Positions 11,982-31,590 of a DNA stretch of 36,269 nt are shown piece by piece. The position numbers and the translations under genes were made by a program. The notes below the pieces were generated by a model, which worked only from the letters and a program-made list of their open reading frames with translations, was not told where the DNA came from and ran no database searches. Each line of letters starts with the position of its first letter. Within the stretch, counting starts at the first letter, position 1. Source of the stretch: Candidatus Woesearchaeota archaeon (GTDB lineage: Archaea; Nanobdellota; Nanobdellia; Woesearchaeales; CALCXY01); the NCBI GenBank assembly GCA_937906345.1, contig CALCXY010000104.1, positions 1 to 36,269 on the forward strand, given 5' to 3'.

Positions 11982-12004
11982 ATGTTATTGGGATTAGGTA
12001 AGGG

Positions 12005-12012
12005 TTTTTAAA
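12005..12012 (-). promoter_or_regulatory. TATA box of the rpoE'-spt4-S24e-S27ae operon
   Basis: On the minus strand ACCAAAACCTTTAAAAACC, centred about 27 nt before ATG 11981. Nearly the same string (ACCAAAACCTTTTTAAACC) precedes the antiporter gene, suggesting a shared strong BRE plus TATA. Confidence 0.55.
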
Positions 12013-12075
12013 GGTTTTGGTAAAAAAATAGGTAAAAATTATGTGAGTTAAAAGGCGATTTTTAATAATAAAAAA

Positions 12076-12140
12076 CCCGCCAGCCGAAAAACCTAAAAGC
12101 TTCGCCTGAATAGCCCCCGCCCCCGCCCATTAATATGGGA
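12076..12140 (+). ncRNA. GC-rich intergenic element A (possible structured RNA)
   Basis: A GC-rich island inside an AT-rich spacer: CGCCAGCCGAA, AAGCTT, then CCCCCGCCCCCGCCCAT and a small hairpin CCCAT-TAAT-ATGGG. It resembles 36038-36090 in the order CGCCAGC, GAA, AAGCTT, CCCCGCC, CCCAT. It is antisense to its flanking genes, whereas the other copy is sense, so it is unlikely to be just a leader or trailer. GC islands often mark structured RNAs in AT-rich genomes, but the strand and type are unknown. Confidence 0.35.
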
Positions 12141-12146
12141 GCCACC

Positions 12147-12154
12147 AAAAAAAA
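12147..12154 (-). terminator. Oligo-T terminator after PIN gene
   Basis: Eight consecutive T on the minus strand, 17 bases after the PIN stop codon. Confidence 0.5.
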
Positions 12155-12170
12155 TTAAAGCTCATAAAAG

Positions 12171-12554
12171 TTACTTCAACTGTAAAAACTGTTTTTGTCT
12201 TAGAAATATTAATGGGATTTTTTTTTCTTTTAAGAATCTTTTTAATTCCATGTCTTGGGTTGCTACGATGTGGTCTTTGGTTACTATGTTTATGATTAAA
12301 TTGTCTACGTTTTTGTTCTTTTTTGTCTTTATGATTATTGGTTTGTAAACTTTAATTAATTGTTTTGCTATCTTTGCATGGATTCGTTGTTTTATTGGTT
12401 GTAATTTAATAATATTTTCTAATTCATCTAAGGTTTTATCGATAATGTAGAGTTTATATGGTGAAGTCATAATTCTTTTAATCTCTTCAAAAATATCTAC
12501 TTTAAATTGAGATGGGATTAGAAGGAAGTTAGTGTCTAGGATTATTTTTTTCAT
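12171..12554 (-). CDS. PIN-domain ribonuclease, Fcf1-like (COG1412 type)
   Basis: 127 residues. 'KKIILDTNFLL' carries the first acidic residue (Asp7). Others are at 'TLDELENI', 'KNVDNLIINI' and 'IVATQDMELKRFL', the order of acidic residues of PIN nucleases. Archaeal relatives next to rpoE' are compared with eukaryotic Fcf1/Utp24 involved in rRNA processing. Its neighbourhood (rpoE' downstream) is the conserved archaeal one, though aIF2-gamma, usually nearby, is absent. The start overlaps the Nudix stop by 4 bases. Confidence 0.85.
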   Translation of the reverse strand: MKKIILDTNFLLIPSQFKVDIFEEIKRIMTSPYKLYIIDKTLDELENIIKLQPIKQRIHAKIAKQLIKVYKPIIIKTKKNKNVDNLIINIVTKDHIVATQDMELKRFLKEKKIPLIFLRQKQFLQLK

Positions 12555-14806: not shown

Positions 14807-15220
14807 TTATTTTTTTTTAAGAAACTTTGAAATATAATATAATGGATAAGCATGTAAATCAAATCCTTCTTTTAAAATACTTTTATATCTTCTATGCGCC
14901 CATTTATACTCTCCTTCACAAAATGCTTTATCTGCCCAAAATCTGTCTTCTTTTTCTTCAGAGAGAGTATTTAATTTTTCTCTATATTTATTTGTGTAAT
15001 ATTTAGCATCCATTACAGACCCTATTACAGGCAAAGATAATGCAACTGTTGATATTAACCCTATTAGGCAAATATTTTTTAATTTATTACCAATTTTATT
15101 TGCCCAATCAGGAAAATAATATTGTCTTTCTAAAAGGGGGACTTTGGGAGATCTTGTCCTTACTGGAATTTTTCTAACAGGTTCATATTCTAATATTTCT
15201 TTTAAATCGGTATAGTCCAT
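14807..15220 (-). CDS. DILDYEP-tag membrane protein 5
   Basis: 137 residues. It begins MDYTDLKEILEYEPVRKIPV, the shared N-terminal peptide of five proteins in this operon. Then come a basic Pro-containing linker, one membrane segment (about 'ICLIGLISTVALSLPVIG', residues 48-68) and a charged C-terminal body with 'KAFCEGEYKWAHRRYKSIL'. That stretch looks like a pair of short helices, perhaps a TPR-like hairpin. Last gene of the operon, 1 base after the preceding gene. No known family. An N-terminus in the cytoplasm is suggested by the basic residues before the membrane segment. Confidence 0.65.
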   Translation of the reverse strand: MDYTDLKEILEYEPVRKIPVRTRSPKVPLLERQYYFPDWANKIGNKLKNICLIGLISTVALSLPVIGSVMDAKYYTNKYREKLNTLSEEKEDRFWADKAFCEGEYKWAHRRYKSILKEGFDLHAYPLYYISKFLKKK

Positions 15221-15221: not shown

Positions 15222-16598
15222 TTAATTAACTCCTGGCGGTGCTCTTAGGTTTCCCCAAGGATGCACTATTTTTTTTATAAATGATTTATCTCCTGTGAAA
15301 GGAGTAAAAGAATAAAATTGAGTATATCCTCTTTGTTCTCTTCTGTATCTATATGTAGGTTCTACCCAAACTCTCTTTACTTGAGGAGGAGCTCTTACTT
15401 TTACATAATGTCCTTCTATTTTTCTTTCTGTTCCTTGTCTTTTGTATACTTTTTGACCCCAAGTAATTTTAATATCCCATTTAGGAGGAGTATATTCATA
15501 CCTGGGAGGAATCCATTTTTGTTCATACCTCACAGTATTGTCTAAAACATTTTTATGATATCCATCCTTAACCTTTTTTTTGTAAAATGTTGGTGCAACT
15601 TCATTTGTTGTAGTATATGAAAATGATTTCACACCATCTAAAAAATCAGCCTTATTTGAGAATGAGTCATTTGCTGCACTTTGATAAAAATCTCTAAATA
15701 ATTGGATGTTTCTATCATCTGTATTCTCCTTTACTTTTGATTTTAAGTTACTAAATCTTTTTTTATAATCTAAAAGTCTAGAATCATGTATTCTTTTTAG
15801 AGCAGATATTCTAGATTCTATTTTAAATGGAGCTCTATGCATTGCTTTGAAAATAGAAGTATTCTCTGATCTTATGGCAGTATTTAATTTTCTACAAGCT
15901 AAAATAGCATCATCAAGTTTTTCATCATCAATTAGATCAGCAATATCTCTAAATTTTCCTTTATAATAATCTATTTTTACTCTTTGTTCTAATTCTGCAG
16001 AGATTAATCTTGATTCAGTTCTTGCCCGAGATACATCTGCTTTTTGTTTACTTTTTTTTGGCAATCTATCTTCTAAAGATACATCATGCTTAGTAAGAGG
16101 TCTTTGTAGATTGATAGGTTGAGATTTATATGAACGAACATTAGTGAGAAGAGTTTTCCTGTCTAATTTTGACTTGGATTTTGGATGTGAAATATGCATT
16201 AGACGAGGTTTAACTTCTTTTTGAACTGAAGGTTCATATAATAATGGTTTAGGTTTTTGAATTAAAGGTTCACTTTTTCTTTTTTTAGGTTTTCTTGGTT
16301 TTTCTTTTTTTAAAGGAGGTTCTTTAAACTCTATTTCTATTTTTTGAGGAGGTGAAGTTACTTGAACAATTTTAACATCTTTTTCTAATTCTTGAGTTTT
16401 AGTTGTTTGGCTAAAATAATTTATTACCCTTGTTAAAGGAGCATGTTTTGGCATAACAAAATACACACCAATATTTAGAGCTGCAAATAGTGCAATACCA
16501 GTTATAATTCTTTGACCTAAAGTTAATTCTCTTGTTTCAGGAGGGCTATGTCTAATAGGTTCATATTCTAAAATATCTCTTAGGTCTCTATGGTCCAT
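15222..16598 (-). CDS. DILDYEP-tag membrane protein 4, large basic protein
   Basis: 458 residues, the largest tag protein. It begins MDHRDLRDILEYEPIRHSPP. One membrane segment follows (residues 30-50, 'ITGIALFAALNIGVYFVMP'), then 130 residues of very basic Lys/Pro/Arg-rich sequence ('PRKPKKRKSEPLIQKPKP') that is probably disordered. A helical region spans about 190-310. The Tyr/Arg/Pro-rich end has repeated 'RYEQKWIPPRYEYTPPKW'-like strands. I recognise no domain. The tail looks like a surface or nucleic-acid-contacting region, but this is inference. Confidence 0.65.
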   Translation of the reverse strand: MDHRDLRDILEYEPIRHSPPETRELTLGQRIITGIALFAALNIGVYFVMPKHAPLTRVINYFSQTTKTQELEKDVKIVQVTSPPQKIEIEFKEPPLKKEKPRKPKKRKSEPLIQKPKPLLYEPSVQKEVKPRLMHISHPKSKSKLDRKTLLTNVRSYKSQPINLQRPLTKHDVSLEDRLPKKSKQKADVSRARTESRLISAELEQRVKIDYYKGKFRDIADLIDDEKLDDAILACRKLNTAIRSENTSIFKAMHRAPFKIESRISALKRIHDSRLLDYKKRFSNLKSKVKENTDDRNIQLFRDFYQSAANDSFSNKADFLDGVKSFSYTTTNEVAPTFYKKKVKDGYHKNVLDNTVRYEQKWIPPRYEYTPPKWDIKITWGQKVYKRQGTERKIEGHYVKVRAPPQVKRVWVEPTYRYRREQRGYTQFYSFTPFTGDKSFIKKIVHPWGNLRAPPGVN

Positions 16599-16602: not shown

Positions 16603-16974
16603 TTATTTAGTATATTTTTTGAATTTTCTATAAGACTGATCTGACATTGTTAACCATGATCCATCATCCATATAAAGAAACCATTTATTTCCTGTCCTAC
16701 CAACACCATGAGAATTACTTTCTAAATTTTTATAATGACTTCTTTCTGCAAGATAGGAGAATGTTTTAATTCCTCCTATTGTGGCTAAAACAAGAAGTCC
16801 AATGCATCCTAGTTTTATTAACATGTCTCCTATATTTGAATCATTAGTGGTTGAGATTCCTGGAGAATATGGACGAGATGGAGATGGTGAAGGAGATGGT
16901 GCAGGAGATGGAGGGATAGGAGTTCCTCTAATAGGTTCATAATCTAAAATATCTCTTAAATTATTGTAATCCAT
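16603..16974 (-). CDS. DILDYEP-tag membrane protein 3
   Basis: 123 residues. It begins MDYNNLRDILDYEPIRGTPI and then has a Pro/Ser repeat (PPSPAPSPSPSPSRP, residues 21-35) as a flexible spacer. One membrane segment ('KLGCIGLLVLATIGGI', about 52-70) follows. The short C-terminal body is rich in aromatic residues ('NKWFLYMDDGSWLTMSD'), a possible small beta hairpin. Spaced 1 base from the preceding gene and 4 from the following one. Confidence 0.65.
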   Translation of the reverse strand: MDYNNLRDILDYEPIRGTPIPPSPAPSPSPSPSRPYSPGISTTNDSNIGDMLIKLGCIGLLVLATIGGIKTFSYLAERSHYKNLESNSHGVGRTGNKWFLYMDDGSWLTMSDQSYRKFKKYTK

Positions 16975-16975: not shown

Positions 16976-17266
16976 TTATCTACCTCTATAAGTTGAATTA
17001 TAACTTGAAGAACTTTGACGATTACGTCTATCCATTTCTATAGTCTTTAATTTCTCCCAATAATCATCATTGAATAAAAATTTTCCTGCAGCGAAAGTTA
17101 ATACAAGAGCTGCTATACCAATTAATAATCCCTTAGTTCTATCAGATATGTAAATATCAGGAAACGAAATTTCAGGAAATTTAAACCTTTTTCTAGGAGG
17201 TCTAGTAACTATAGGAGTTCTTTCAGGTTCATAATCTAAAATATCTCTTAAATTATCTTTATCCAT
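16976..17266 (-). CDS. DILDYEP-tag membrane protein 2
   Basis: 96 residues. It begins MDKDNLRDILDYEPERTPIV, followed by a basic linker (RPPRKRFKFP), one membrane segment ('GLLIGIAALVLTFAAGKFLF', about 47-66) and a short charged Ser/Tyr/Arg-rich tail. It overlaps the stop of the caspase-like gene by 8 bases. Confidence 0.65.
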   Translation of the reverse strand: MDKDNLRDILDYEPERTPIVTRPPRKRFKFPEISFPDIYISDRTKGLLIGIAALVLTFAAGKFLFNDDYWEKLKTIEMDRRNRQSSSSYNSTYRGR

Positions 17267-17843
17267 TTAGATCACCTTGGTAAGTATCTAAACAAACATC
17301 TGGTAAACCATTATAGCTCATTTCAAAAACTGTTAAACTCTTACTAAAAAAAAGACAATTTCTTCTGGGATTTTCCATAACATAATATCCTAAAGGAAAC
17401 CCTCCTTCTCCTCCACAAGTGAATTGAAACCAAAATCCTTTTTTTCTAGCTCTATTTCCATAAATTTCTTTTATTTCGTCTGTTGACATATCTGATTGGT
17501 ATAAATCCATATTATCATTGCTTCCATGACCAAGATTTACAATTGATTGATATTGATTATCCAATAAAACTTCTTTTACATCATCTTTAGTAGCTTTAAA
17601 GAACCAATCAACCCTTACATTTAGATTATTGAATGAATTATTAATTGTATGGGGGATAGAGCTTCTACAAAAATAATCTAACATACCAAGAGTTCCAGAT
17701 CCAACTAATGCAGCAGCTTTTTCTGAGTAAGATAAAGAATCTTGATTTAAAGTAGTTTGAAAATTATTTATACACCATCTGGGAAATTCTAATACCATTA
17801 AACCATATCTAAATAAATAATAATCAATTGTTTTTTCTTTCAT
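17259..17843 (-). CDS. Caspase/CHAT-like cysteine peptidase candidate
   Basis: 194 residues, the one gene in this stretch without the shared N-terminal peptide. Residues 98-110 read YQSIVNLGHGSND and residues 137-148 GFWFQFTCGGEG: a hydrophobic strand ending in GHG and a second ending in C-G-G. That is the His/Cys dyad arrangement of clan CD peptidases (caspases, CHAT, gingipains); His106 and Cys143 would be catalytic. The fold is small for a full caspase domain, which needs about 200 residues, so it may be minimal or inactive. The preceding 95 residues are helical. It overlaps the next gene by 8 bases and begins 61 bases after the previous one. Confidence 0.5.
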   Translation of the reverse strand: MKEKTIDYYLFRYGLMVLEFPRWCINNFQTTLNQDSLSYSEKAAALVGSGTLGMLDYFCRSSIPHTINNSFNNLNVRVDWFFKATKDDVKEVLLDNQYQSIVNLGHGSNDNMDLYQSDMSTDEIKEIYGNRARKKGFWFQFTCGGEGGFPLGYYVMENPRRNCLFFSKSLTVFEMSYNGLPDVCLDTYQGDLNG

Positions 17844-17904: not shown

Positions 17905-18327
17905 TTATCTCCTCTTCATTCGTCTTACAAAATCATTCCAAGGCTTCACAATTTTTTTATTATAAGTGTCTGCAGCTTTGTTTCTTGCTCTATAATAAGA
18001 ATTTGTTATGTCTCGTTCAACACCATCCCAATACTCTTTAGATTCTCTTTCAGATTTTCTTCTCTCATAAGCTCTTCTATTTTCTTTTGCTCGTTCTCTT
18101 GCTTGATATAGAACTGCTGCTTCATGCCTTTTTTTTTCAATTTTATCTTTTTTTATTTTTTCCATATAACAGCAACTACCAATAGTTACTACTAATGCAA
18201 CTGAAGCAGCAAATACTTTTGCATAATCAGGAGTATTTGGATTTGGAGTTCTTGGAGAACTAGGAGTAGATGGAGAACCTCTAATGGGTTCAAAATCTAA
18301 TATGTCTCTTAAATCTCCGTGATCCAT
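17905..18327 (-). CDS. DILDYEP-tag membrane protein 1
   Basis: 140 residues. It begins MDHGDLRDILDFEPIRGSPS, then a Ser/Pro spacer (TPSSPRTPNPNTP), a membrane segment ('VFAASVALVVTIGSCCYM', about 38-56) and a highly basic helical coiled-coil body ('QARERAKENRRAYERRKSER') to the end. First of the five tag proteins, 8 bases after the second glycine-zipper gene. Confidence 0.65.
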   Translation of the reverse strand: MDHGDLRDILDFEPIRGSPSTPSSPRTPNPNTPDYAKVFAASVALVVTIGSCCYMEKIKKDKIEKKRHEAAVLYQARERAKENRRAYERRKSERESKEYWDGVERDITNSYYRARNKAADTYNKKIVKPWNDFVRRMKRR

Positions 18328-18335: not shown

Positions 18336-19196
18336 TTATGATGCTAATGCAGCATCTATTTTTTCTTGAAAATAGGGTTTTTCATTTTGTACTTTGGCTT
18401 TATCCCAATAATATTTTCTTAGAGTATAAGGCATCTCAGAGGTAGATTTTTCATCCCAAAGAGAGGATAATAACCATCCATAAACAAATTGAGGAGCATT
18501 TCCTCTTTTAGGAATTGTATTTGGACCTTCTCCTTTGACATAATTGGATATTCCATCTTCTTCAAACTCAGGAAGATGTACAAACTTTACAGGAACTTGT
18601 TCATAACGAATTTGTTTAGCGATTTCTCTGTATTTTCCCCACCAGTTGGTATAAATTTTATTTATATTTTCATACTTTAACTTTAATTTTTCATTAATTT
18701 TTTTTAATTCATCTTTTCCAATACTATCTGGTGAATAAAAACCTGCTACATATCCTAAAGATGCTCCTGCAACTGTTCCTGCTATAACTGATGGAACTAA
18801 TGGGAAAACTAGAGCAGATACTAAACCAGTTAATAATCCTGGAACTGTTCCTAATGTAGCTCCAATAATTCCTAAATTTCTTCTTCCTTTTTTTGGAGAA
18901 GTTTCTACTCCATTTTCATAATGAACATGTGAAGCTAAGAACTCCTTTATTGCTTCTATTTTGAACATGGGTTCAAAAAAAACTCTTTCAGCATGGCCTG
19001 TATTTGCCATAGCATCTGCAATTTCTTCAATTACTTTGGTTTTATTTTCAACAGGAAGAGCATGGTAGACAATAACTTCATCTAATGATTTATTATTTAG
19101 CATAATAGGTTCATCATAAGGACAACAAAGAGTGGTCTCATTCTCATTTGTTGGTCTTAAAAAATATTCTAGGGTTGATTTTGTTTCTTGTTTCAT
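18336..19196 (-). CDS. Glycine-zipper membrane protein, paralog 2
   Basis: 286 residues. The N-terminal soluble part is followed by a long Gly/Ala-rich hydrophobic block (about 107-153, 'LGIIGATLGTVPGLLTGLV' then 'VIAGTVAGASLGYVAGF') that fits a glycine-zipper hairpin of two membrane helices. The C-terminal half aligns with the 263-residue paralog: IAKQIRYE / IAQRIRYN, LPEF / LPDF, 'PQFVYGWL' / 'PNWVYKAF', 'MPYTLRKYYWDKAK' / 'MPYATQWYYFNKSQ'. No known family. It starts 15 bases after the second E2-like candidate. Confidence 0.65.
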   Translation of the reverse strand: MKQETKSTLEYFLRPTNENETTLCCPYDEPIMLNNKSLDEVIVYHALPVENKTKVIEEIADAMANTGHAERVFFEPMFKIEAIKEFLASHVHYENGVETSPKKGRRNLGIIGATLGTVPGLLTGLVSALVFPLVPSVIAGTVAGASLGYVAGFYSPDSIGKDELKKINEKLKLKYENINKIYTNWWGKYREIAKQIRYEQVPVKFVHLPEFEEDGISNYVKGEGPNTIPKRGNAPQFVYGWLLSSLWDEKSTSEMPYTLRKYYWDKAKVQNEKPYFQEKIDAALAS

Positions 19197-19211: not shown

Positions 19212-20264
19212 TTAATCATTTATTCTTTTTGCATGAATAATAGCATCAGCTACAGTACTGATATATGCCATGACTTTTCTTATAGGATGAACTTCATTAT
19301 CTCCAAAATGATCTTTTATTAATTGATCAAAACGAATAGAACAACTTATATGGGGTTTTTGAGCAGGGACATACTTGTGGTCATTTCTTTCAGCAAAAAA
19401 ATAATTACATCCAGGATTTTCAATATTACCTCTTTCTAATAAAGAAATTGCAACAGCACTTTCATGATGTTCATATGATTTTTTATTATAACCTTCTCTA
19501 AATTCTGGAAGATATCTTAATAATAATCCTGAATCAGAATCAAAACCAAAACTGTCATAATCATAAATGCCATTATTAATTGTTACTAAATGAGATAGAG
19601 ATTTTATTTTTTTATCAAGCGCAAAATCTCGGTCAAGTCGAACAGCCTCATCTCCAATCCATTGTATTGCTTCAGCTCTACAATAATCATTAATACCTTT
19701 ATCAATCAACTCTTCAAAATTATCTAAATCTCCAATAAAATCTCCTGAAGTATACCCTCCATTATTTATTTTAACTATTCCCTTATCCTTTTTATTCCAA
19801 CATAAATTATAAACTCCCTCATTAATTAATATCAATTTTTTATTATTGAATAATATATCAAAAGGTAATCTTACCGGATTAGTATTTTCTACAGGAGATT
19901 CACTAAAAGAAAATCGAGTATTTCTCACTTTTTTTTCACTATTTAATTCTTCTAAGGACTCCAGGTAAGAAAACAATAATTCTTTTTTCCTTAAGGCTTT
20001 ATCCTCATAAGGCATTACTCCCCAACTCACTTCTGCCATTCTTTTTGAAATAGTGTGATATAATATCTCTTCATTTTTCTCTGCATATCTTCTAAATAAT
20101 GCTGATAAATGTCCTCGATCTCTGAGTTCAAATATCTTTTTTCCTAGCATAAAAAAATTTTGGGCAGTATCATCTATACCATTTGCAACATACAATCTAT
20201 GATCATAGATTACTACTGGACCTTTTCTAGCCCTTGCTGTTATCTCAGTTATTGGAAAATTCAT
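19212..20264 (-). CDS. E2-like candidate, paralog 2 (conserved Cys and His-Pro)
   Basis: 350 residues, paralog of 24153-25202. Shared blocks: 'ARxGPVVI' near the N-terminus, 'RKKELLxSYLES' at about 92-103, 'NxGIYDYDSFGFDxDSGLLLxYLPxFxEGYxKKSY', and the C-terminal 'ISC...VHPIRKVMAYI'. Cys308, 18 residues before His326-Pro327, is conserved in both. The layout recalls PRTRC-B-type E2 proteins, which have a catalytic Cys followed by F...HPN, but the similarity is weak. The E2 assignment rests mainly on the neighbouring E1-like and JAB genes. Spaced 1 base from the gene before it. No membrane segment. Confidence 0.4.
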   Translation of the reverse strand: MNFPITEITARARKGPVVIYDHRLYVANGIDDTAQNFFMLGKKIFELRDRGHLSALFRRYAEKNEEILYHTISKRMAEVSWGVMPYEDKALRKKELLFSYLESLEELNSEKKVRNTRFSFSESPVENTNPVRLPFDILFNNKKLILINEGVYNLCWNKKDKGIVKINNGGYTSGDFIGDLDNFEELIDKGINDYCRAEAIQWIGDEAVRLDRDFALDKKIKSLSHLVTINNGIYDYDSFGFDSDSGLLLRYLPEFREGYNKKSYEHHESAVAISLLERGNIENPGCNYFFAERNDHKYVPAQKPHISCSIRFDQLIKDHFGDNEVHPIRKVMAYISTVADAIIHAKRIND

Positions 20265-20265: not shown

Positions 20266-21057
20266 TTATGTAGGAACCCTCACGGTTTGTGATTTATTGA
20301 AATAATACCATTGAGTTGCATAGGGCATACGTGAAACTACATCAGGATTTTTCATAACTGTTTGGAAAGCTTTGTAGACCCAATTTGGTGAAGTTCCTGT
20401 ACGTAAAGTTCCTAAAGTTGGAGTGTCAGGTAAAAGATATTGTCCTATATTATCATTAATAAAATCAGGCAATACTTCAAAATTAGGAGTTAAGTTGTTA
20501 TATCGTATTCTTTGAGCAATTTCATCTAGAAATTCTTGAACTTGAGTGTTTAATTCATTTTGATTGTTGGCTTTTTTAAATCTTGAATTTTCATTATGCC
20601 ATTTTTTTCCAGCAATTAGTAATGGAGCGGTATATCCTAACAATCCTCCTGTCAATGCTCCAACTATCATACCAGGAGGACCTCCAATAATTCCAGCTGC
20701 ACCTCCAGCAACTGCTCCAGCTGTTGCCATTTCACCATATGCTTTTGCAGGAATATCTAATACAGGAGTTTTTCCAGTAAAATAAGAGACAGCTATACTC
20801 CAAAATGCTTTTTTATAATTGTCAGACACCTCTGGGACAGGTTCATCATCTGGAAAATGAACTTTAGCTTCTTCTATTTGTGTTGCTATTCGATTTAAGG
20901 AATCAAATTCATCTGTAACAGGGAAAAAATGATACGCTTGGACTCTTGATATATTTGATTTTTCATTAACAATAGCTTCCAAATTATCAAGAAATAATAA
21001 TTCTTGCGTTTCGTTCAAGGGTAAAAATATTGCGTTGAGTTGGTTTATATCTGGCAT
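20266..21057 (-). CDS. Glycine-zipper membrane protein, paralog 1
   Basis: 263 residues. The soluble N-terminal part (1-110) is followed by a 38-residue Gly/Ala block ('AGAVAGGAAGIIGGPPGM' and 'IVGALTGGLLGYTAPLL', about 113-150), a glycine-zipper hairpin typical of membrane-inserting or oligomerising helices. The C-terminal domain is shared with 18336-19196. It overlaps the coiled-coil gene by 1 base. No signal peptide is seen; insertion would be through the central block. Function unknown. Confidence 0.65.
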   Translation of the reverse strand: MPDINQLNAIFLPLNETQELLFLDNLEAIVNEKSNISRVQAYHFFPVTDEFDSLNRIATQIEEAKVHFPDDEPVPEVSDNYKKAFWSIAVSYFTGKTPVLDIPAKAYGEMATAGAVAGGAAGIIGGPPGMIVGALTGGLLGYTAPLLIAGKKWHNENSRFKKANNQNELNTQVQEFLDEIAQRIRYNNLTPNFEVLPDFINDNIGQYLLPDTPTLGTLRTGTSPNWVYKAFQTVMKNPDVVSRMPYATQWYYFNKSQTVRVPT

Positions 21058-22019
21058 TATATTCCATCTCCTCGAAGCATTAAATCATTTTTTAATCGGT
21101 TATATGCTCTTTGGTGAGTATTATAATCTCTATTGAGTTGTTCTCGAGTTGATTTTTTAATAAAAATTGCAGACTTTTTTTGAGAAATTATTTCCATTTT
21201 ATCTCCAATAGAATCCATTAAATTTTTAGTTTCTGCAATTGCACAAACATATAATTCTTCATGAGATTTAGTTTTGTAAGCAGTTGCAGTAGATTGCAGA
21301 GTATTTAGATGCATTATCACAGAAGATGAATTACTTTCAGAGACAGATCTATATGCTGTTTGTCTTGCTTGAGTAAAATTTCCATAGGTAGTTGTTAAAC
21401 CTTCATAAGTTTTTTCTGAATCTTTTGCTCTTTTAGCTATTTTCTCTTGAGTTTGTCTTTTCTTTCTTTCATCTTCAAATTTTTTCTTCTCAGCTTGATA
21501 AGCATCAGAATTTTCCTTCCATCCTTTTTCAGCTTCATTCAATTTTACTTCTAGGTGAAATAATTTTCCACCATTTAGACGGTCATCTAGATATGATATG
21601 AATCTATTTATTGATTCTGTTGAATATGTTCTTGTGTCTGCAGGTTTACCCAGATCAATTTGCCCATATTCACTTCCAAGTTGATGAGTAACAGCTAATG
21701 CGCCATATACAGCAATTTGTAATGTTGATTGATTAGGATCATGCAATAATGTTCTTAATTGAGTTCCATGCTCTGTATCTCCTAAAATGCTAAGGTATGC
21801 ATCAACTAACAAAACTCTACCCATACAATTATCTTTGTTAATTTTTATTGCATGGAGAACTTCTGTATCGCTTAAGTATTTAATAAAAGAAGCTGCTAAC
21901 ATTTGCTCATGGACTTTAAGTTTTACAAATTTTCCGTTAGAGGGAGGTAGCTTATGTGGTTTTTTTGGCATTAAATCTTCTGCTACTTGGTCCAGTGTAA
22001 AACCTTTTTTCCCTGCCAT
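21057..22019 (-). CDS. Coiled-coil protein between E1-like and glycine-zipper genes
   Basis: 320 residues. Residues about 35-150 are a mixed soluble domain ('MGRVLLVDAYLSILGDTEHG', 'TLQIAVYGALAVTHQLG'). Residues 155-320 are helical and charged ('EKKKFEDERKKRQTQEKIAK'), a coiled coil. No known family. It lies 1 base after the E1-like gene and overlaps the following gene by 1 base, so it is a core part of the operon. It might be an adaptor or a substrate of the modification system. Confidence 0.6.
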   Translation of the reverse strand: MAGKKGFTLDQVAEDLMPKKPHKLPPSNGKFVKLKVHEQMLAASFIKYLSDTEVLHAIKINKDNCMGRVLLVDAYLSILGDTEHGTQLRTLLHDPNQSTLQIAVYGALAVTHQLGSEYGQIDLGKPADTRTYSTESINRFISYLDDRLNGGKLFHLEVKLNEAEKGWKENSDAYQAEKKKFEDERKKRQTQEKIAKRAKDSEKTYEGLTTTYGNFTQARQTAYRSVSESNSSSVIMHLNTLQSTATAYKTKSHEELYVCAIAETKNLMDSIGDKMEIISQKKSAIFIKKSTREQLNRDYNTHQRAYNRLKNDLMLRGDGI

Positions 22020-22020: not shown

Positions 22021-23298
22021 TTAGTAAACTCCTAAGTTTGAATCATAATTTACTTGTTTTAAGGAAGGTGCACCATATGTTTTAGGTTGCAATACTTTTC
22101 TCATTTCATTTAACATCAAGGAAGCAGCAACTCTATTTGGAATGGTGGATGAGGGGAAAAAAGCACAATTATTTTTTCTTTTGGGAGTTGGTTCGTTCCA
22201 AACTGGATCTTGTTCGCTAATTGTTCCATTTTTTCCAGGAATGTAGTTTAAAACAACACTAGATGCACCATCCATTGCAGAACCAGAATTGATAAATGGA
22301 ATTTTATACATTTTTGCAAATTCTTGCAACAATAAACGAGTTTCATTAGAATCTGCACAGCTTAAAATGAGATCCACTTTATTATTATCAAAATATTGAG
22401 CCCAAGTATGATCAAATTTTTCAACTCTTGATTGATAATTTCCTTTAGGATTTAATTTTTTCATTTTATTAGCTAAGCTAACAGCTTTTGGAGCATTTTG
22501 AGAGTCAAAATACCAAAATTGGTTACCTAAATTACCTTGCTCAGCTGTGTCAAAATCTACAACTTCCATGTTTGAAGTTCTTATTATTGAAGCACCTCTT
22601 CCTATATTGCTACCAATGCCTCCAGCACCTACCATGAATACATTACCTGGAAGAGTAGCTTCAGTATCGTTGATCCCATTATAAGAAAATAACTCTTGAC
22701 GTGAATCATACTGCATAGGCATTACTGCTTTCCTTATTTCTTCTAGAACTAAAGAAGATAAAAGCATATTATTTACTACACCATTTTCTTGGTTTTGATA
22801 TTTGTTTACATTAAAATCAAATGCATCTTCTAATTTATTATTTTCATCAGTAAATAAGATAATTTGTTTTTTGGTTGATGAGCCTGAAATAAAAGGAATA
22901 GATTGATCTTGAGCATATTCATATGAAATAAATTTACTATTTGGATTATTTGTTAAATCAACAATAACGTTTGGTTTTGAGGTTACATACGAATCAATAT
23001 CATCTGGATCGTCAATTTCTAAAGTTATTGGAGAAAAATTTATTTCATGATATAATAATTTACAAAAATCTGCGACATTTTCAGCTCTTGATTTATGATT
23101 ATTCATATAAAACCAATCCTGATTTGATGCGGGTGAGTCTCCAATCATTGTAATAGAGCCGTAACCCATCTCAGTCAATCCTATTGCTGTTTCTGCTGCT
23201 AATTGATTTGAGCCTACTAGTGCAATATGAGCTAAGTCTATCTTCTTCTGATCCCAGCCTTTAATAGCAGATTGCCTACTATGTCTTTCACGTTCCAT
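22021..23298 (-). CDS. E1-like enzyme with two ThiF-type domains
   Basis: 425 residues. The N-terminal domain starts ERHSRQSAIKGW (the R-x-x-R-Q segment that gives the arginine finger in MoeB/ThiF/E1 proteins) and has a degenerate nucleotide loop GSNQLAAE (29-36). The second domain (about 215-400) has the intact loop GAGGIGS (224-230), VVDFD (Asp248, Asp250), an equivalent of NLxRQ reading NLGNQ, Lys271, and 'LILSCAD' with Asp316. Cys378 in NNCAFFPSS sits where E1 proteins carry the catalytic Cys. This is an inactive plus active adenylation domain pair in one chain, as in eukaryotic UBA1 and bacterial BilD. It would adenylate a ubiquitin-like C-terminus. It is 1 base after the JAB gene. Confidence 0.8.
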   Translation of the reverse strand: MERERHSRQSAIKGWDQKKIDLAHIALVGSNQLAAETAIGLTEMGYGSITMIGDSPASNQDWFYMNNHKSRAENVADFCKLLYHEINFSPITLEIDDPDDIDSYVTSKPNVIVDLTNNPNSKFISYEYAQDQSIPFISGSSTKKQIILFTDENNKLEDAFDFNVNKYQNQENGVVNNMLLSSLVLEEIRKAVMPMQYDSRQELFSYNGINDTEATLPGNVFMVGAGGIGSNIGRGASIIRTSNMEVVDFDTAEQGNLGNQFWYFDSQNAPKAVSLANKMKKLNPKGNYQSRVEKFDHTWAQYFDNNKVDLILSCADSNETRLLLQEFAKMYKIPFINSGSAMDGASSVVLNYIPGKNGTISEQDPVWNEPTPKRKNNCAFFPSSTIPNRVAASLMLNEMRKVLQPKTYGAPSLKQVNYDSNLGVY

Positions 23299-23299: not shown

Positions 23300-24136
23300 T
23301 TACTTTTTTTTTACTTTTAATGCAATTTCCTCCATAATTTCTTTATCATCAAATGTTACATCATTCTCTACAACAATTTTTTCTAATCCTAATTCTCTTT
23401 CCTCAGAACCTGTATGGTCGCACACTTTACACCAATCTACTTTAGAAGCTTTAACATATGCTTCTCCTGCTGTATTAACAACCAAAGAATACGCAACTCC
23501 AGTTTCTTTTAATGCTCTGTCAATTGCAGGAGTTTCGGAAATAGCCATTTTTAGATCAGGCTTATCCGCTGAAAGGGTTAAGATACTATTACCAGAGTAA
23601 ATAGTTACACGATCCCCAAAAAGATCTAATTTGAAGTCATGCGATTCTGAATCAGTTTCCTGTTGAATAGTGAATGGAGATCTAAATTCGAGATCATAGG
23701 TTCTGCCATTTTCAGCAACTTTAATAGAGCCATCTCTCTTTACCACGAGTAAATTATTTGCCTCTCTAGAATATCTTACTCTAGAATTTAATGCCCAATC
23801 CTCCTTTAAATTATTAAGGTTATTGTCATCTGTTCCAGAATGAAAAACCCCACCATTTCCATGACTTTGCCAACATCCTAATATTTTTTGGCCTTTATTT
23901 ACTGCTTCATCTGCTGTATATACACCATCTAAAGGTCCTAATCTTCCAGATGCAGTTGACACCACTTGATTATGTGCTAAAACTACATCATGTACAGCTG
24001 TTCCATCTGCTGCTTGGGGAGCAGTTAGTAAACCATAACATTCTATACTTTGTTTATGGTATGTGCAAACACCTTGTGTGTATGCCATTATTTTATTAAA
24101 AGCTCCTTCAGTTATTTTCATTGTTTCTTGTTTCAT
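23300..24136 (-). CDS. JAB/MPN (JAMM) domain protein
   Basis: 278 residues from ATG 24136, which follows an AGGAGGAAT ribosome-binding site 16 bases after the previous stop; a longer frame to 24262 would overlap that gene. Glu32 in ECYGLL is followed by GCWQSHGNGGVFHSGTDDN (87-105), the JAMM core of JAB deubiquitinase-like peptidases. The motif is normally H-x-H-x10-D; here the first His is Gln90 (codon CAA), while His92, Ser100 and Asp103 are kept. The C-terminal half (120-278) is unrecognised and includes CKVC. It probably removes or processes a ubiquitin-like protein, if active. Confidence 0.75.
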   Translation of the reverse strand: MKQETMKITEGAFNKIMAYTQGVCTYHKQSIECYGLLTAPQAADGTAVHDVVLAHNQVVSTASGRLGPLDGVYTADEAVNKGQKILGCWQSHGNGGVFHSGTDDNNLNNLKEDWALNSRVRYSREANNLLVVKRDGSIKVAENGRTYDLEFRSPFTIQQETDSESHDFKLDLFGDRVTIYSGNSILTLSADKPDLKMAISETPAIDRALKETGVAYSLVVNTAGEAYVKASKVDWCKVCDHTGSEERELGLEKIVVENDVTFDDKEIMEEIALKVKKK

Positions 24137-24152: not shown

Positions 24153-25202
24153 TTATTCGTGAATTCTTTTTTCATGAAGAATGCTGTCAGCAACAGTCCC
24201 AATATAAGCCATGACTTTTCTGATAGGATGAACACTCCTATTTTGGAATTCATTGTTAACAACTTGATTAAAACTTGCTTTGCAGCAAATTGATGATTTA
24301 GGTGCTGGAACGTAGGAATTGTTTTCCCATTGAGCGAAGAATCTAGCAGCTTCAGGATTCGTTAGATTTTTTTCCTCGAGCAGATAAATTGCAACAGCAC
24401 TCCCTTTATTTTGGTATGATTTCTTAGTGTAACCCTCATGAAAAGCTGGAAGATATGCAACTAAGAGACCTAACTCAGGATCAAACCCAAATACATCAAA
24501 ATTATACATACCATTTACAACAGGAACTATATTCGAGTAGGATTCGATTTTTCTATCTAAAATAATTTCCTTGTTCCTTAGTGCATTCTCATTTTTTACT
24601 TTGATAAAGGCTGATGCTTTTACAAAATTTCCTATTGCTGCATCAATACCTTGTTCAAACGAATCTAAGTCGCCTATATGGCTCCCTATTGTATACCAAT
24701 GATTATTTATTTTAAGAACTGATGTCTTTGGACGAGGGTGTAGATTATATACTTGGTTGTTAACGATAATTAATTTTTGATTCTTAAACAAATAATCAAA
24801 AGGAGGAGTTGCGTGTTCAAGGTCCTCTAATGTAGGTCTCACAAAAGGTGTTTTTTTTATTGAGTCATCTTTTTCATTTTCTTGCTCTTCACATGATTCT
24901 AAATAAGAGAGAAGAAGCTCTTTTTTTCTGATGACTTCCGATGTAGTTCCTTTATAATTTCCTGCTACCTTTGGAATTGTTCCTGATATATGATCTTCTA
25001 ATACTGCCTCATTCTTTGATTCATATCTTGAAAATATTTGTGATAAAGAACCTTTACTCTTTAACTCAAACCTATATCCACAAAATGAATAAAAGTCTTT
25101 AGCATCATGATTAGAGAATACAGCAGGCATAAATCTATTATTTATAATCACTACTGGCCCATTCCTTGCTTTTCTAGACAGTACTGTTGTAGGGAACATC
25201 AT
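24153..25202 (-). CDS. E2-like candidate, paralog 1 (conserved Cys and His-Pro)
   Basis: 349 residues from ATG 25202, chosen by alignment with the paralog (MMFP / MNFP); a TTG at 25217 is upstream in frame. It overlaps the 127-residue gene by 29 bases. It shares the blocks listed for 19212-20264 and ends 'HPIRKVMAYIGTVADSILHE'. Cys306 and Cys307 (SSICCKASF) and His325-Pro326 are the candidate active-site region; Cys307 aligns with Cys308 of the paralog. No clear E2 profile is visible by eye. The gene stands immediately before the JAB and E1-like genes, the position where E2 genes occur in bacterial ubiquitin-like operons. Confidence 0.4.
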   Translation of the reverse strand: MMFPTTVLSRKARNGPVVIINNRFMPAVFSNHDAKDFYSFCGYRFELKSKGSLSQIFSRYESKNEAVLEDHISGTIPKVAGNYKGTTSEVIRKKELLLSYLESCEEQENEKDDSIKKTPFVRPTLEDLEHATPPFDYLFKNQKLIIVNNQVYNLHPRPKTSVLKINNHWYTIGSHIGDLDSFEQGIDAAIGNFVKASAFIKVKNENALRNKEIILDRKIESYSNIVPVVNGMYNFDVFGFDPELGLLVAYLPAFHEGYTKKSYQNKGSAVAIYLLEEKNLTNPEAARFFAQWENNSYVPAPKSSICCKASFNQVVNNEFQNRSVHPIRKVMAYIGTVADSILHEKRIHE

Positions 25203-25557
25203 TTTTTCTGTATGCAATTGTTTGAGGTTTTGATATGACTAATTCCACTGCTCGAATTCTAGCTTCTACTTCACCAGCTGCAATCCCTCTTAACAATTCA
25301 GTTTGCATTACTTTATCTCCTGGATTAACAGGATACTGGTTACCATTACCATCTGAAATGTATAACGCATTACCAGAACCATCTAGATTTCTTTCCATTG
25401 TATTTACCAATGAACTTGAATCGTTTCTATTGTCATCCATCACTCTATTCATCATATCTTGAATAGTGATACTTGGTAGTTCTCTTGTTGCTATTTCTGT
25501 GTTAATTCTTTGTCCTGCTGGTCCATTTTTTAAGGCAACAGGTAAATTTTGGTTCAT
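25174..25557 (-). CDS. Short protein, first structural gene of the operon; possible ubiquitin-like modifier or substrate
   Basis: 127 residues, ribosome-binding site GGAGG 8 bases before ATG. Residues 1-60 are polar and probably disordered. Residues 64-127 ('ALYISDGNGNQYPVNPGDKV' onward) show strand-turn-strand, a helix ('MQTELLRGIAAGEVEARIRA') and two more strands, a size and order compatible with a beta-grasp domain. It has no Gly-Gly end: it stops at PYNSTV. It could still be a modifier after processing, but I cannot assign it. Preceded by a hairpin containing the operator-like dyad. Confidence 0.5.
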   Translation of the reverse strand: MNQNLPVALKNGPAGQRINTEIATRELPSITIQDMMNRVMDDNRNDSSSLVNTMERNLDGSGNALYISDGNGNQYPVNPGDKVMQTELLRGIAAGEVEARIRAVELVISKPQTIAYRKNDVPYNSTV

Positions 25558-25608: not shown

Positions 25609-26037
25609 TTAATTCATAAACTCCTCTCTCTTAACTTCTTCAGTGATGTCGAGGATCTTGATATCTTTGTAAGGTTGAGTTTGTAATTGCGATTTAAAAT
25701 CGTAAAAAGCGTCCATTTGTTTAAAAATACAATCTAAAATTAAGTTAAAACCGTTATCAGCTTTGTAGATGGAATTGATATTTTCATGATCTGATAAAAA
25801 ATTAATTAACCTTTCAGGTTCTAAAGTATTGATTAATATTTTTTTTCTAATATTATAGCCGAGTTTAGGAAAATCTAATATTGTTGTGAATTTTTTAATA
25901 ACTTTTTGATCATTTCTTTTTAGTTTTTCAAATATAGTTGAAACAGGAATACCTGTATCTTTAGCAATATCAACCATAGGTTTTCTTGCGTTTGCTCTTA
26001 GATGTTTTAATATGTCTTTATCTCTTGTTGGTATCAT
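25609..26037 (-). CDS. Lrp/AsnC-type transcription regulator
   Basis: 142 residues. The N-terminal helix-turn-helix 'MIPTRDKDILKHLRANARKP' to 'IPVSTIFEKLKRN' (1-42) matches the Lrp/AsnC DNA-binding domain. The C-terminal half (60-142) resembles the RAM effector domain in strand order but is short and diverged. It is the first gene of the long minus-strand cluster, 51 bases upstream of the 127-residue gene. Dyads of nearly the same sequence before both genes suggest it controls itself and the operon. Confidence 0.8.
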   Translation of the reverse strand: MIPTRDKDILKHLRANARKPMVDIAKDTGIPVSTIFEKLKRNDQKVIKKFTTILDFPKLGYNIRKKILINTLEPERLINFLSDHENINSIYKADNGFNLILDCIFKQMDAFYDFKSQLQTQPYKDIKILDITEEVKREEFMN

Positions 26038-28111: not shown

Positions 28112-29011
28112 ATGAAAAGAAAAGTAACTTTACATGGTCCTGCAACTCTTAGTGTGTCGTTACCTACTGCGTGGGCTAAGAAGCATGGAGTCCAAAAAGG
28201 TGATGAGATTGATGTTGAAGAGTTTCGGAATTGTTTAAAGATTATTACTACAAAAGAAAAAGAAGGAAATTTTATATCAATTGATTTAACAGGATATTTA
28301 GATATTACTCATAGAATGTTATCTTCTATATACAAAAGTGGTTTTGATTCATTAGAAGTTATTTATTCAGCTGAAGAGAAAAAGATTGTTGTAGATACTA
28401 TTAATGAAGAATGGATTGGGTTTGAGATAATGGAGCAGAGTGATAAGAGAATAAGTGCTCAAAAAGTTACAGAGATGAGTAAAGAAGATGTTAAAGCATT
28501 TGTGTTAAGAACGTTTCATTTTGTCCATGATATGGGAAATGATTGTTTACAGCTTATCAAGGATGAGAAATTTGATGATTTGCCTAGTGTTGTAGAAAAA
28601 GATACGCAAGTAAATAAGCTTACGAACTTTTGTAGGAGAGCAATTAATAAAGAAATATTAACTGGAATTACTAAACCTGGGCCTTTATATTTTATTGCAG
28701 AGGAATTAGAGAAGATTGGGGATGCGTATAAGCATATTTCACAAGATAAAATGGAAAATAAGGAAAAAGTTGGGAAAAGTTTACTTGAAGTGTTTAGTTT
28801 GATAAATACTTTATTACATGATGCTCAAAGTATGTATAGTGCATTTAGTTTGGATAAGATGAAAGAGTTTAAAGAAAAGCAATTGAGTATTCAAGATGCT
28901 TTAGATAAGGAAATTAGTAAGAAAAGTGATGTAAAACTGCTTATTGAGCTTAATATGTTGTTTGAATTGGTATTTGATTTAAATGGTGCTATTATTTCTA
29001 TTTCCCATTAG
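28112..29011 (+). CDS. AbrB/PhoU-type regulator, second copy
   Basis: 299 residues. The N-terminal AbrB hairpin pattern 'MKRKVTLHGPATLSVSLPTAW' and 'HGVQKGDEIDVEEF' (1-45) is canonical for archaeal AbrB-PhoU proteins. The PhoU-like helical domain occupies about 120-299 ('FVLRTFHFVHDMGND', 'EELEKIGDAYKHIS'). Low similarity to the copy at 851-1792 apart from this layout. Located directly before the kinase pair, but with its own promoter and a separate kinase promoter. Regulatory target unknown. Confidence 0.8.
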   Translation: MKRKVTLHGPATLSVSLPTAWAKKHGVQKGDEIDVEEFRNCLKIITTKEKEGNFISIDLTGYLDITHRMLSSIYKSGFDSLEVIYSAEEKKIVVDTINEEWIGFEIMEQSDKRISAQKVTEMSKEDVKAFVLRTFHFVHDMGNDCLQLIKDEKFDDLPSVVEKDTQVNKLTNFCRRAINKEILTGITKPGPLYFIAEELEKIGDAYKHISQDKMENKEKVGKSLLEVFSLINTLLHDAQSMYSAFSLDKMKEFKEKQLSIQDALDKEISKKSDVKLLIELNMLFELVFDLNGAIISISH

Positions 29012-29065: not shown

Positions 29066-29080
29066 ATGGTGGTTTTATGA
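29066..29080 (+). CDS. Four-codon leader frame coupled to the first kinase
   Basis: ATG GTG GTT TTA TGA: its stop overlaps the kinase ATG (ATGA), and the GAGGGGA ribosome-binding-like site (29054-29060) is spaced for this ATG rather than for the kinase start 17 bases away. It may serve only to deliver ribosomes to the kinase start. It could also be chance. Confidence 0.3.
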   Translation: MVVL

Positions 29081-31590
29081 ATAGAGATCTAACTAAAGTC
29101 AAAGTTCCGGGATTTGTTCTAGGTAAGGTTATAGGAGAAGGTGCTTATAAGGTTGCTATTGATGCACATGATGAAACTGGATTAGGAAGGTATGTTGTTA
29201 AGATTATTGATCCTACAAGGATGACTTCTACTGGGAAGAGTATTATGGAAAGGATGGGTGTTTCTTTAGAAAAATATGTTGAAGATGAGTTTGATAGATT
29301 AAGATTTATCCATAAAATAAAAGGAAAAACTCATTTACCTCAAATTATTCCTGTTCCAAATATTGGGGAAGGTTTAATTGCATATGCTGAAGAGTATGCA
29401 GGACCAATTAACCTAAAAGATTTTGTTAGAAAATGTTATGATCAAGGAGAAAAAATACCTAAAAAATTATTTGAATTAATTGCATCCCAATTGATTACAT
29501 CTGTAATTGAAATGCATAAAGCTGGTATAACTCATGGAGATATTAAACCAGCTAATGTAATAATTGATGACCTTGTCCTTCCTCATATGAATTCGGAGAG
29601 ATATATTATTGGAGATTTAATAATTGGAGAACTTTTTTTAACTTTAACAGATTTTGGACAAACTTCATACATTGGAGAAGGGCATAGGAAAAATTTTGGA
29701 TCAATTCATAACAGGGCTCCAGAATTATTTGAAGGGAATGAATTATTTTTCCCAGAAATTAAGAATGTAAAATTAGAGCGTGAAGCACTTTGGGAAGCTA
29801 AAGAAAAAGGATTGCATTTGTATCATAATATAGAAATTCCCATAAAACTTGAAGATAGATCAAAAGTAGCTGGAGACATTTGGTCCATTGGTTCTACTTT
29901 ATATTATGTGGCAACAGGAAAATATTTAGTTCCACAAACTCAAATCCCTAGAAGTAATTTTAAAAATGAAGAGGATAGAGTACAGTATGAAAATGAAGTA
30001 AGAGAGGAGTTAATGGCAATTATAGGTGATAATTTATTTGAAAGATTATTAGAAGTTCCTCATTTTGACCTTAATAAATTTTTAATTATTGATCCAAATG
30101 AAAGAGAACGTAAAAATCCATTGCGTGATCTTGAATCATTAGATTTAGATTTTAGGGAAACAAGTTATCCAACTAGAGAAATTGTTAAATCAGAGGGTAA
30201 AGCATTTGATACGCAGAGGAAAACTAAAATTGTAAAACAAAATAGAAAAACTAGAAAGAAAATGACTTGGTGGGGGGTTGCGGCTGGATCGGTTTTAGCT
30301 GGTGGAATATATTTAGCTAGTTTATTTAACAGTGCAGCTTTTGACCAAAATAAAACATTAATGCCTTTGTTTGAAAGATTTGGCAGTCCTTTAGCAGCAG
30401 GTGTTGAATTGGATGAATATTCTAATGATGAAAAATTGAGGCCTGAACAAGTTGTAGTTTCCAAAGATGAAGAGGAAAAATTGTTTTTTAAACATGGTTT
30501 TGAAGATGGGAAAAAGGTTTTATATCTTACTCATGTTTTAGGAGAAAATCATTATGGTTTACCAACAATCAGTTCAATAAAGATTCCAGATATTACTGAA
30601 AAAGATGAGGAAGTAGTTTCTTTTTATGAAAGAGAATATGGGCGCCCAGAAATTCACATTAGAGACGAATTGTCAAATGGATTAGAGTTCCAAGTTACAA
30701 TTAATCCAACTGGAGATGTACTTTTGGCTTTACAGGAGATGGAAGAGCGTCCTCCTTGTAGATATGAGGTTTTGGGTAATGATGAAGAGATACCATTTTT
30801 AAGACGTGGAAAGAAAATCACGATTGAGGATAACTATTTAAGATATTTTATTAGTAAGCTGAATTTTTCTGAAGAAGTTAGTTTGGGAAAACTCCTACTC
30901 AGGAAAATTAATCCAGATATAGATGAATTTAAAGTTAATATTTATGAGCCTATACCTTTTTTTGGTATTCCTTATAACTGTGAGACTCTTAATTATGAAA
31001 AAAATGAAGATGCCCCTTATGAAATACATTTTGGTATGGAAACAATATTACCAAAGGCTATTTGGAGAATTAATGGTGAGGAAATTGTTAAGAGTTTAAA
31101 GAAAGGATGGCAATTTACTAAAAAAGGTGTTTATACTGTAGACTGTATAGCAAATGATTTTGAAGAGTCTAAACAAAGAGCTGAATTTACAAAGCATAGT
31201 TGGACTGTGCATGTTGTTGAACCTGAAGATATGAGGGCTGATATAACTGTTGGAGAATTTGAAGGAGGGAATTTTAATAATCAAAGATTGGGGAGAGGAA
31301 ATTATATGGCCTTATTTAGACCTTTTAATTCAGGATATACAGTAGCAGAGGATGTTGAAATGAAAGTTTTGTTGGATGGAAAAGATTTACCTAATCTTAA
31401 GGAAGATGGAGATCCTTATGTAATTAGTGAAATTTATCCTCATTCAATAGAATCTAGTGAACGTATATGGTTGCCTAAAGGAATTAAAGAGGGTATGCAT
31501 ACGATTGAGATAATTTTAGATCCAAATAATAAGATTGATGATAGAAATAGAGAAAATAATAGAAGGAGGTATGATTTTGAGAAATTATGA
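29077..31590 (+). CDS. Membrane-anchored eukaryotic-type Ser/Thr kinase 1 with extracellular CARDB-like end
   Basis: 837 residues. Kinase domain: glycine loop GEGAYKVA (20-27), Lys42 in VVKII, catalytic loop HGDIKPAN (153-160), DFG (192-194), APE (214-216), 'GDIWSIGSTLYYVATG' (266-281). About 50 extra residues separate APE from the latter. A single membrane segment (about 397-417) leads to a 420-residue outside part with an Ig/CARDB-like C-terminus ending 'LDPNNKIDDRNRENNRRR'. It probably senses an extracellular ligand and phosphorylates cytosolic proteins. The stop overlaps kinase 2 by 4 bases. Confidence 0.8.
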   Translation: MNRDLTKVKVPGFVLGKVIGEGAYKVAIDAHDETGLGRYVVKIIDPTRMTSTGKSIMERMGVSLEKYVEDEFDRLRFIHKIKGKTHLPQIIPVPNIGEGLIAYAEEYAGPINLKDFVRKCYDQGEKIPKKLFELIASQLITSVIEMHKAGITHGDIKPANVIIDDLVLPHMNSERYIIGDLIIGELFLTLTDFGQTSYIGEGHRKNFGSIHNRAPELFEGNELFFPEIKNVKLEREALWEAKEKGLHLYHNIEIPIKLEDRSKVAGDIWSIGSTLYYVATGKYLVPQTQIPRSNFKNEEDRVQYENEVREELMAIIGDNLFERLLEVPHFDLNKFLIIDPNERERKNPLRDLESLDLDFRETSYPTREIVKSEGKAFDTQRKTKIVKQNRKTRKKMTWWGVAAGSVLAGGIYLASLFNSAAFDQNKTLMPLFERFGSPLAAGVELDEYSNDEKLRPEQVVVSKDEEEKLFFKHGFEDGKKVLYLTHVLGENHYGLPTISSIKIPDITEKDEEVVSFYEREYGRPEIHIRDELSNGLEFQVTINPTGDVLLALQEMEERPPCRYEVLGNDEEIPFLRRGKKITIEDNYLRYFISKLNFSEEVSLGKLLLRKINPDIDEFKVNIYEPIPFFGIPYNCETLNYEKNEDAPYEIHFGMETILPKAIWRINGEEIVKSLKKGWQFTKKGVYTVDCIANDFEESKQRAEFTKHSWTVHVVEPEDMRADITVGEFEGGNFNNQRLGRGNYMALFRPFNSGYTVAEDVEMKVLLDGKDLPNLKEDGDPYVISEIYPHSIESSERIWLPKGIKEGMHTIEIILDPNNKIDDRNRENNRRRYDFEKL
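29091..29214 (+). repeat. Identical kinase 5' segment, copy 1
   Basis: 124 bases identical to 31598-31721. Similarity decays over about the next 55 bases, and the rest of the two genes is clearly diverged. Encodes the start and glycine loop. Confidence 0.9.

Follow-up and report, generated by a model that had tools for sequence, protein, structure and literature searches.

The window analysed here, a stretch of 36,269 nucleotides, is a complete contig of a 1.64 Mb metagenome-assembled genome (77% completeness) of a Candidatus Woesearchaeota archaeon. Between 25557 and 14807 it carries a run of genes that all lie on one strand and follow each other at gaps of a few bases, the largest being 61 bp (Table 1). 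The run begins with a tightly packed cassette in which a ubiquitin-like (Ub-like) gene is followed by an E2-like gene, a JAB gene and, in last place, the gene for a fused E1-like enzyme, which is the single gene of its kind found in this 77% complete genome. Rfam and tRNA scans of the window gave no match.

Table 1. Genes and domains of the E1 locus and of the run that follows it, in order of transcription
Feature	Position	Strand	Evidence or remark
Regulator of the AsnC/Lrp type, 51 bp ahead of the Ub-like gene	25609..26037	-	HTH_24 2e-6
Candidate Ub-like modifier (127 aa) with QTIAY as its aligned tail	25174..25557	-	Homologues with QEGG tails; weak model
349-aa E2-like candidate with the conserved Cys in SSICC, lacking the HP motif	24153..25202	-	Family Cys/His columns
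JAB/JAMM-like protease, start MKQETMKITEG, WQSHGNGGVFHSGTDD, first His zinc ligand replaced by Gln	23300..24136	-	Prok-JAB 4e-5, a little short of the curated cut-off
Fused E1-like enzyme, 425 aa, ATG start	22021..23298	-	ThiF twice: an IAD-like pseudo-ThiF in the N-half and an AAD-like ThiF in the C-half
Inactive adenylation half, residues 1-195	22714..23298	-	Alignments, N/C profile alignment, N-half profile matches
Active adenylation half, residues 215-425	22021..22656	-	Residue counts over 63 fused E1s; MoeB/UBA1 equivalences from PMC12355090
320-aa protein directly downstream of E1	21057..22019	-	Homologue L176:4684-6048, 9.7e-14
Protein whose hydrophobic segment is glycine-rich, paralogue of 18336-19196	20266..21057	-	Membrane-associated
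Second E2-like copy, Cys in HISCS	19212..20264	-	45% identical to 24153-25202
Membrane-associated paralogue of 20266-21057	18336..19196	-	
Single-TM protein, N-terminal MDHGDLRDILDFEPIR	17905..18327	-	
Single-TM protein, N-terminal MDKDNLRDILDYEPER	16976..17266	-	
Single-TM protein, N-terminal MDYNNLRDILDYEPIR	16603..16974	-	
Single-TM protein, 458 aa, N-terminal MDHRDLRDILEYEPIR	15222..16598	-	
Single-TM protein, N-terminal MDYTDLKEILEYEPVR	14807..15220	-	

The E1-like protein matches the Pfam ThiF family over two stretches (5.7e-33; 114.5 bits against a cut-off of 28.1), and the profiles of its N-terminal and C-terminal halves are homologous over 172 columns (hhalign E 5e-18), so that the doubling of the domain is not due to chance. 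The initial annotation had described the gene as encoding a dead and a live adenylation domain in one chain, and these matches bear it out, as does each of the sequence motifs on which the description was based. The N-terminal half retains the RxxRQ arginine-finger segment as RERHSRQ, with R5, R8 and Q9, the finger itself being R8; its nucleotide loop is broken, reading GSNQLAAE (residues 29-36) in place of GxGxxG, and Asn117 aligns with D316 of the C-terminal half in the alignment of the two profiles, the Mg-binding Asp having been lost. That this half has a ThiF fold is indicated by the matches of its profile to MoeB (3.8e-16) and also to ThiF, UBA1, UBA4, NAE1 and SAE1, as well as by the predicted model described below. 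The C-terminal half contains GAGGIGS (224-230), D248, D250, N256, K271, D316 and C378, and the protein possesses the Rossmann fold, G-loop, Asp, Lys and Asp that define the E1-like (ThiF) superfamily. Where NLxRQ is usual it has NLGNQ (256-260), with Asn at position 259.

An AlphaFold2 model of the E1, built on an 11-sequence alignment (mean pLDDT 74, pTM 0.80), has UBA7, UBA6 and UBA1 as its top Foldseek matches, the whole chain being aligned. In VIA-align, 406 of the 425 residues superpose at 2.7 Å on UBA6 (Z 32.8), that is, on the IAD+AAD core of UBA6/UBA1, and 354 residues superpose on the bacterial E1-E2-Ubl complex 8tz0 (Z 29.2, 12% identity); single-domain MoeB aligns to residues 209-425 only (Z 24.2). 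These whole-chain superpositions, which belong to a predicted model alone, support the packing of the two halves as a pseudo-dimer of the UBA1 type, with the reservation that AlphaFold2 might lean towards E1-like packing, many E1 structures being known. The comparison with UBA1 that the initial annotation had proposed thus favors the pseudo-dimer and the UBA1-like division of roles that it had anticipated.

The model also relates the two halves to the phosphate site of UBA1. Its residue 1 and residue 50 of human UBA1 (9mcb) begin the aligned ranges, so that, barring a gap near the start, Arg8 would correspond to UBA1 Arg57. UBA1 Arg57 and Arg515 hold the pyrophosphate/gamma-phosphate site, and MoeB Arg73, Lys86 and Asp130 are the equivalents of UBA1 Arg515, Lys528 and Asp576 (PMC12355090). 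By these equivalences N259, K271 and D316 would, in the predicted model, occupy the positions of UBA1 Arg515, Lys528 and Asp576, and the arginine that was correctly noted as missing from NLGNQ is the counterpart of MoeB Arg73/UBA1 Arg515 at the gamma-phosphate site. Most of the family has both gamma-phosphate arginines; in the window and in a relative, L176 (L numbers denote loci of relatives recovered by profile searches), R8 is present and the second is Asn259. With the NLxRQ arginine replaced by Asn, this branch would have to make do with the finger arginine.

Profile searches of the same order, of the phylum and of GTDB genomes yielded 63 distinct fused E1s, mostly from DPANN archaea and Desulfobacterota. 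The relatives found in all three sets are full-length fused E1s, Desulfobacterota metagenome-assembled genomes being included, and those archaeal contigs that carry a name are Woesearchaeota, Pacearchaeota and Nanoarchaeota. Within the phylum sample, a manual count gave 45 of 371 genomes with a match that covers the two halves wholly or for the most part (E < 1e-59). No E1 relative was found encoded on the viral contigs searched, phages and plasmids gave a single weak match each, limited to the C-terminal half, and PADLOC and PHROGs returned for the E1 just general E1-E2 or unknown-function ThiF matches. Across the 63 proteins G224, G226, N256, K271 and D316 are invariant, and D250 (62/63) and C378 (59/63) nearly so; R8 is kept in 52, with seven gaps. 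At position 259, 61 of the proteins have Arg, and the remaining two, those of the window and L176, have Asn. The spacing between D316 and C378, 62 residues in the window, ranges from 56 to 80 in the family, one truncated member excepted.

In a quick tree, with long branches, of 58 halves and single-domain relatives, the N-halves form one clade (SH-aLRT 100), the C-halves fall on one side of a weakly supported branch (43), and the branching of the C-halves is largely parallel. The two ThiF domains were probably joined in a single fusion event. The Desulfobacterota E1s group with the archaeal L027 in both halves of the tree, and this grouping of sequences suggests that the E1 gene moved between archaea and bacteria.

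The fused E1 is part of a widespread, conserved four-gene cassette, which the initial annotation had missed. The usual gene order across the relatives is Ub-like, E2-like, JAB, E1. JAB and E2-like genes lie beside the E1 in 50 of the 63 loci, accompanied in 36 by a Ub-like gene and in 14 by none; the remaining loci have a JAB gene alone (5), an E2-like gene alone (4), E2-like and Ub-like genes (3) or no such neighbor (1), and, since several of them end at contig ends, these counts are lower bounds. Homologues of the AsnC/Lrp-type regulator occur near the cassette in L024, L033, L167, L171, L178, L184 and L185. A literature search that covered few subscription papers found no account of the cassette in DPANN archaea, and an earlier description is possible. 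In L045, L048, L051, L027 and L046 two extra genes stand between the E2-like and JAB genes; one product has about 370 aa throughout, and the other about 190 aa in Desulfobacterota and about 400 aa in the two archaeal loci, L027 and L046.

Among the partners, the JAB protein belongs to a family whose profile matches Rpn11 (1.2e-7). In the window its zinc ligands read QSH..D in place of HxH...D, and Gln at the first His is found in the window alone among the aligned set; a simple motif, which misses others with an intact His, detects the first His in 38 of 57 cassette JABs. A TM segment in the window JAB proved to be an artefact of a too-early start, and the start was set at 24136. The E2-like and Ub-like assignments are weaker than that of the E1. 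In the E2-like family the Cys column is conserved in 60 of 62 members and the His column in 53, and the motif HPx(4-12)[ILV]C occurs in 39 of the 62 against 3 of 352 other ORFs. The family has no profile similarity to Pfam, NCBIfam or PADLOC families, comparison with three approximate eukaryotic E2 sequences gave nothing above column-shuffled controls, and neither the E2-like nor the Ub-like profile matched PDB sequences; the E2 assignment thus derives from motif and context. The Ub-like homologues, of 121-143 aa, align along their whole length and several end in QEGG followed by a few residues; the tags of L046 and L048 are of the QEGG kind. GG is present in the last 15 residues of 25 of 47 tails, compared with 12 of 352 background short ORFs, and often precedes a short tail that the JAB protein could trim. 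The window protein itself ends in QTIAYRKNDVPYNSTV, without Gly-Gly. A frameshift hiding a GG at the end of its gene was ruled out, as GG occurs in none of the three frames. Its AlphaFold2 model, of low confidence (pLDDT 53, pTM 0.46), has a beta-beta-alpha-beta-beta order, and the recognizable Foldseek matches of this low-confidence model are beta-grasp domains (PB1, RAWUL, Eap/superantigen-like, FERM F1; best E 1e-3).

The computed double ThiF fold, the residue conservation, the recurrent four-gene cassette and, in the predicted model, the pseudo-dimer geometry make it likely that the protein is a minimal ubiquitin-type E1, in which two ThiF domains form an intramolecular pseudo-dimer that activates the co-encoded Ub-like tag. 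From them we infer all of the chemistry, with the small protein as the modifier, the 349-aa protein as the E2 and Cys378 as the carrier of the thioester. The C-terminal half would bind ATP-Mg through its G-loop, D250, N256, K271 and D316 and would adenylate the Ub-like protein, whose gene lies three places upstream, at its C-terminus; the N-terminal half, no longer binding ATP, would supply Arg8 to the gamma-phosphate from the other side of the interface. Once activated, the tag would move onto Cys378, which lies in the crossover loop, from there onto the E2-like Cys and finally onto targets, and the JAB protein would trim the precursor tail and/or remove the tag.

Besides the missing profile similarity of the E2-like family and the low confidence of the Ub-like model, four features of the window run counter to this proposal: the Ub-like protein has no GG, the E2-like protein no HP, a zinc His of the JAB protein is replaced by Gln, and residue 259 of the E1 is Asn. 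All four features would be expected of a degenerate copy, that is, of a decaying cassette whose E1 is no longer efficient at activation, yet we regard this as unlikely, because every ORF of the cassette is intact and tightly packed with the next, the E1 has kept its G-loop, D250, K271, D316 and C378, and the E2-like gene has been duplicated with both copies still open. Furthermore, three of the four departures are common to L176, which belongs to a different family of the same order and whose E1, 42% identical to that of the window, pairs with it in the tree in both halves (support 98 and 100). The L176 E1 also has NLGNQ, its E2-like protein has the Cys without HP, and its candidate Ub-like protein ends in DVGYQNAAV, with no Gly-Gly; its JAB protein retains HSH, so that QSH is a private change of the window. 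Being common to so distant a relative, the departures of the E1, E2-like and Ub-like proteins have been long retained, which argues against simple decay. The genome of L176 also holds the Woesearchaeota contig JACQMV010000011.1, as judged from the identical contig L041/L152.

It is distinctly improbable that the enzyme activates a sulfur carrier for tRNA thiolation or cofactor synthesis, in the manner of MoeB, ThiF or UbaA, and not a tag for protein conjugation. These enzymes share with it the ThiF fold, the catalytic residues and a Cys in the crossover loop, its C-terminal half is like ThiF and MoeB in NCBIfam, and a CxxC knuckle is kept in the C-terminal half of 41 of the 63 fused E1s; however, every NCBIfam score is far under the family cut-off, genes for thiolation, Moco synthesis or rhodanese were not recognized in the window or in the relatives inspected, and the recurrent neighbors are a JAB gene and a gene for a Cys protein with the HP...C motif. 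MoeB, ThiF and UbaA are, moreover, single-domain homodimers with two working active sites (PMC12355090), whereas here two unequal halves, one of them dead, are fused in one chain, and this asymmetry separates the window E1 from the MoeB/ThiF type. A peptide-modifying adenylation enzyme of the MccB/PaaA kind is scarcely credible: such peptide-acting ThiF-type proteins exist, and MccB and PaaA are among the PDB matches, but the N-terminal half is itself a ThiF domain with an Arg finger, the model superposes over its whole chain on E1s of the UBA1 type, and Ub-like, E2-like and JAB genes adjoin the E1 gene.

A fused asymmetric E1 is the hallmark of eukaryotic ubiquitin activation. The window enzyme, read as a minimal ubiquitin-type E1, has in common with UBA1/UBA6/UBA7, the best structural matches of its model, and with NAE1-UBA3 and SAE1-UBA2 an inactive and an active domain, a pseudo-dimer, an Arg finger in the inactive half and the catalytic Asp, Lys and Asn. 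UBA1, UBA6 and UBA7 are about 1000 aa long, whereas the 425-aa chain of the window is fully accounted for, in the model, by the two ThiF halves and has no FCCH, SCCH or UFD; its Cys378 lies in the crossover loop, and the equivalent of UBA1 Arg515 is Asn. An E1 that consists of two adenylation halves alone offers a minimal model for the origin of the asymmetric E1 and indicates that such an enzyme can occur without inserted Cys domains or a UFD, and the NLGNQ branch is a natural experiment on whether an E1 can work with the finger arginine alone. The cassette is spread over many tiny-genome DPANN archaea and also occurs in Desulfobacterota; as dozens of related archaea, and some bacteria too, carry the four genes together, ubiquitin-type protein tagging is probably common in minimal DPANN cells.

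The gene order of BIL operons (BilABCD), A-B-C-D, is Ubl-E2-JAB-E1, and the window likewise has Ub-like, E2, JAB and E1 genes together, its E2 and Ubl calls being weaker. BilD combines IAD and AAD in one chain and is reported to have a helical Cys domain of about 80 aa inserted in the AAD (PMC11354881). No such insert is accommodated in the window E1, given the short D316-C378 spacing, and for this reason the protein is not filed as a BilD. The likeness to BilD lies in the IAD+AAD chain and the gene content and ends at the inserted Cys domain. The bacterial structure 8tz0 superposes on the model at low sequence identity, neither the E2-like nor the Ub-like partner has a match in a known family, the window is archaeal, and BilD does not appear by name among the 60 listed sequence matches of the E1.

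PRTRC_ThiF is a single domain of 245 aa, and the window E1 scores 22.5 bits against its cut-off of 144.75, so far below it that the cassette is not PRTRC. Operon type 6d, which we take to be of the PRTRC kind, nevertheless encodes the same four activities as the window. Its Ub-like, JAB, E1 and E2 genes were described by Iyer et al. (2006), and its E2 lacks the classical His and has a downstream His (PMC1779556), as do the E2-like copies of the window (VHPIRK). The ubiquitin operon of Caldiarchaeum and Asgard archaea comprises Ub, E1-like and E2-like genes with an Rpn11-type JAMM that trims a C-terminal extension (PMC5654768) and is thus an archaeal set alike in content; it differs in having a RING E3, which an unsystematic look did not recognize in the window, and an E1 with a C-terminal UBL domain.

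Downstream of the cassette, the homologue of the 21057-22019 protein has the same place in L176, directly after the E1 gene. The five single-TM proteins, each with one predicted TM segment and otherwise different, begin with a common 16-residue peptide, MDxx[DN]L[RK][DE]IL[DE][YF]EPxR, which a whole-genome search found nowhere else in this genome, and they may be candidate targets or docking partners of the conjugation cassette. A bolder proposal, which we put forward tentatively and think improbable, is that the window's branch performs a specialized conjugation without Gly-Gly (the tag ending in IA or VG before Tyr, as in UFM1) and without the second phosphate arginine, marking the co-encoded single-pass membrane proteins via the N-terminal MDxx[DN]LRDILDYEPxR, with the 21057 and 20266/18336 proteins as further factors.

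Several other genes of the window and its relatives may be recorded. Beside the cassette of L024 (1302-8296) are genes whose N-termini are alike in pairs (MVDKNLAEKCRRWVEEYS and MIDSDLVERCRAWVEEYS; PSIDEIVFRVAVEYENL and PSIEDIVFRVAVQYENL). Within the downstream run, the 194-aa product of 17259-17843 (minus strand), which has no family match, contains LGHGSN and FTCGGEGG, recalling the His/Cys pair of caspase-like (clan CD) proteases. At 1929-4825 (plus strand) three paralogues have an identical leader resembling a signal peptide, MNYKTITDIIGKGILAGTMAFGGMLPSYGEEAK, to which the leader of 2621-3046, MNYEPIKNIVNK..., is related. A tandem pair of paralogues at 29077-34229 (plus strand) has protein-kinase-like N-terminal domains (HGDIKPANVII, HADTKPANFII), after which each protein continues with a TM segment and a C-terminal extension. 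AbrB/PhoU-like regulators are encoded at 851-1792 (minus strand) and 28112-29011 (plus strand); homologues flank the cassette divergently in L176 (10094-12238), and L151 and L156 have others in its vicinity. Finally, homologues of the window genes at 10791, 11370 and 12171 occur near the fused-E1 cassette of L036 (328-1985), which is from a different family, and the block shared by the window (10791-12554) and L036 hints at a conserved chromosomal position of the cassette.
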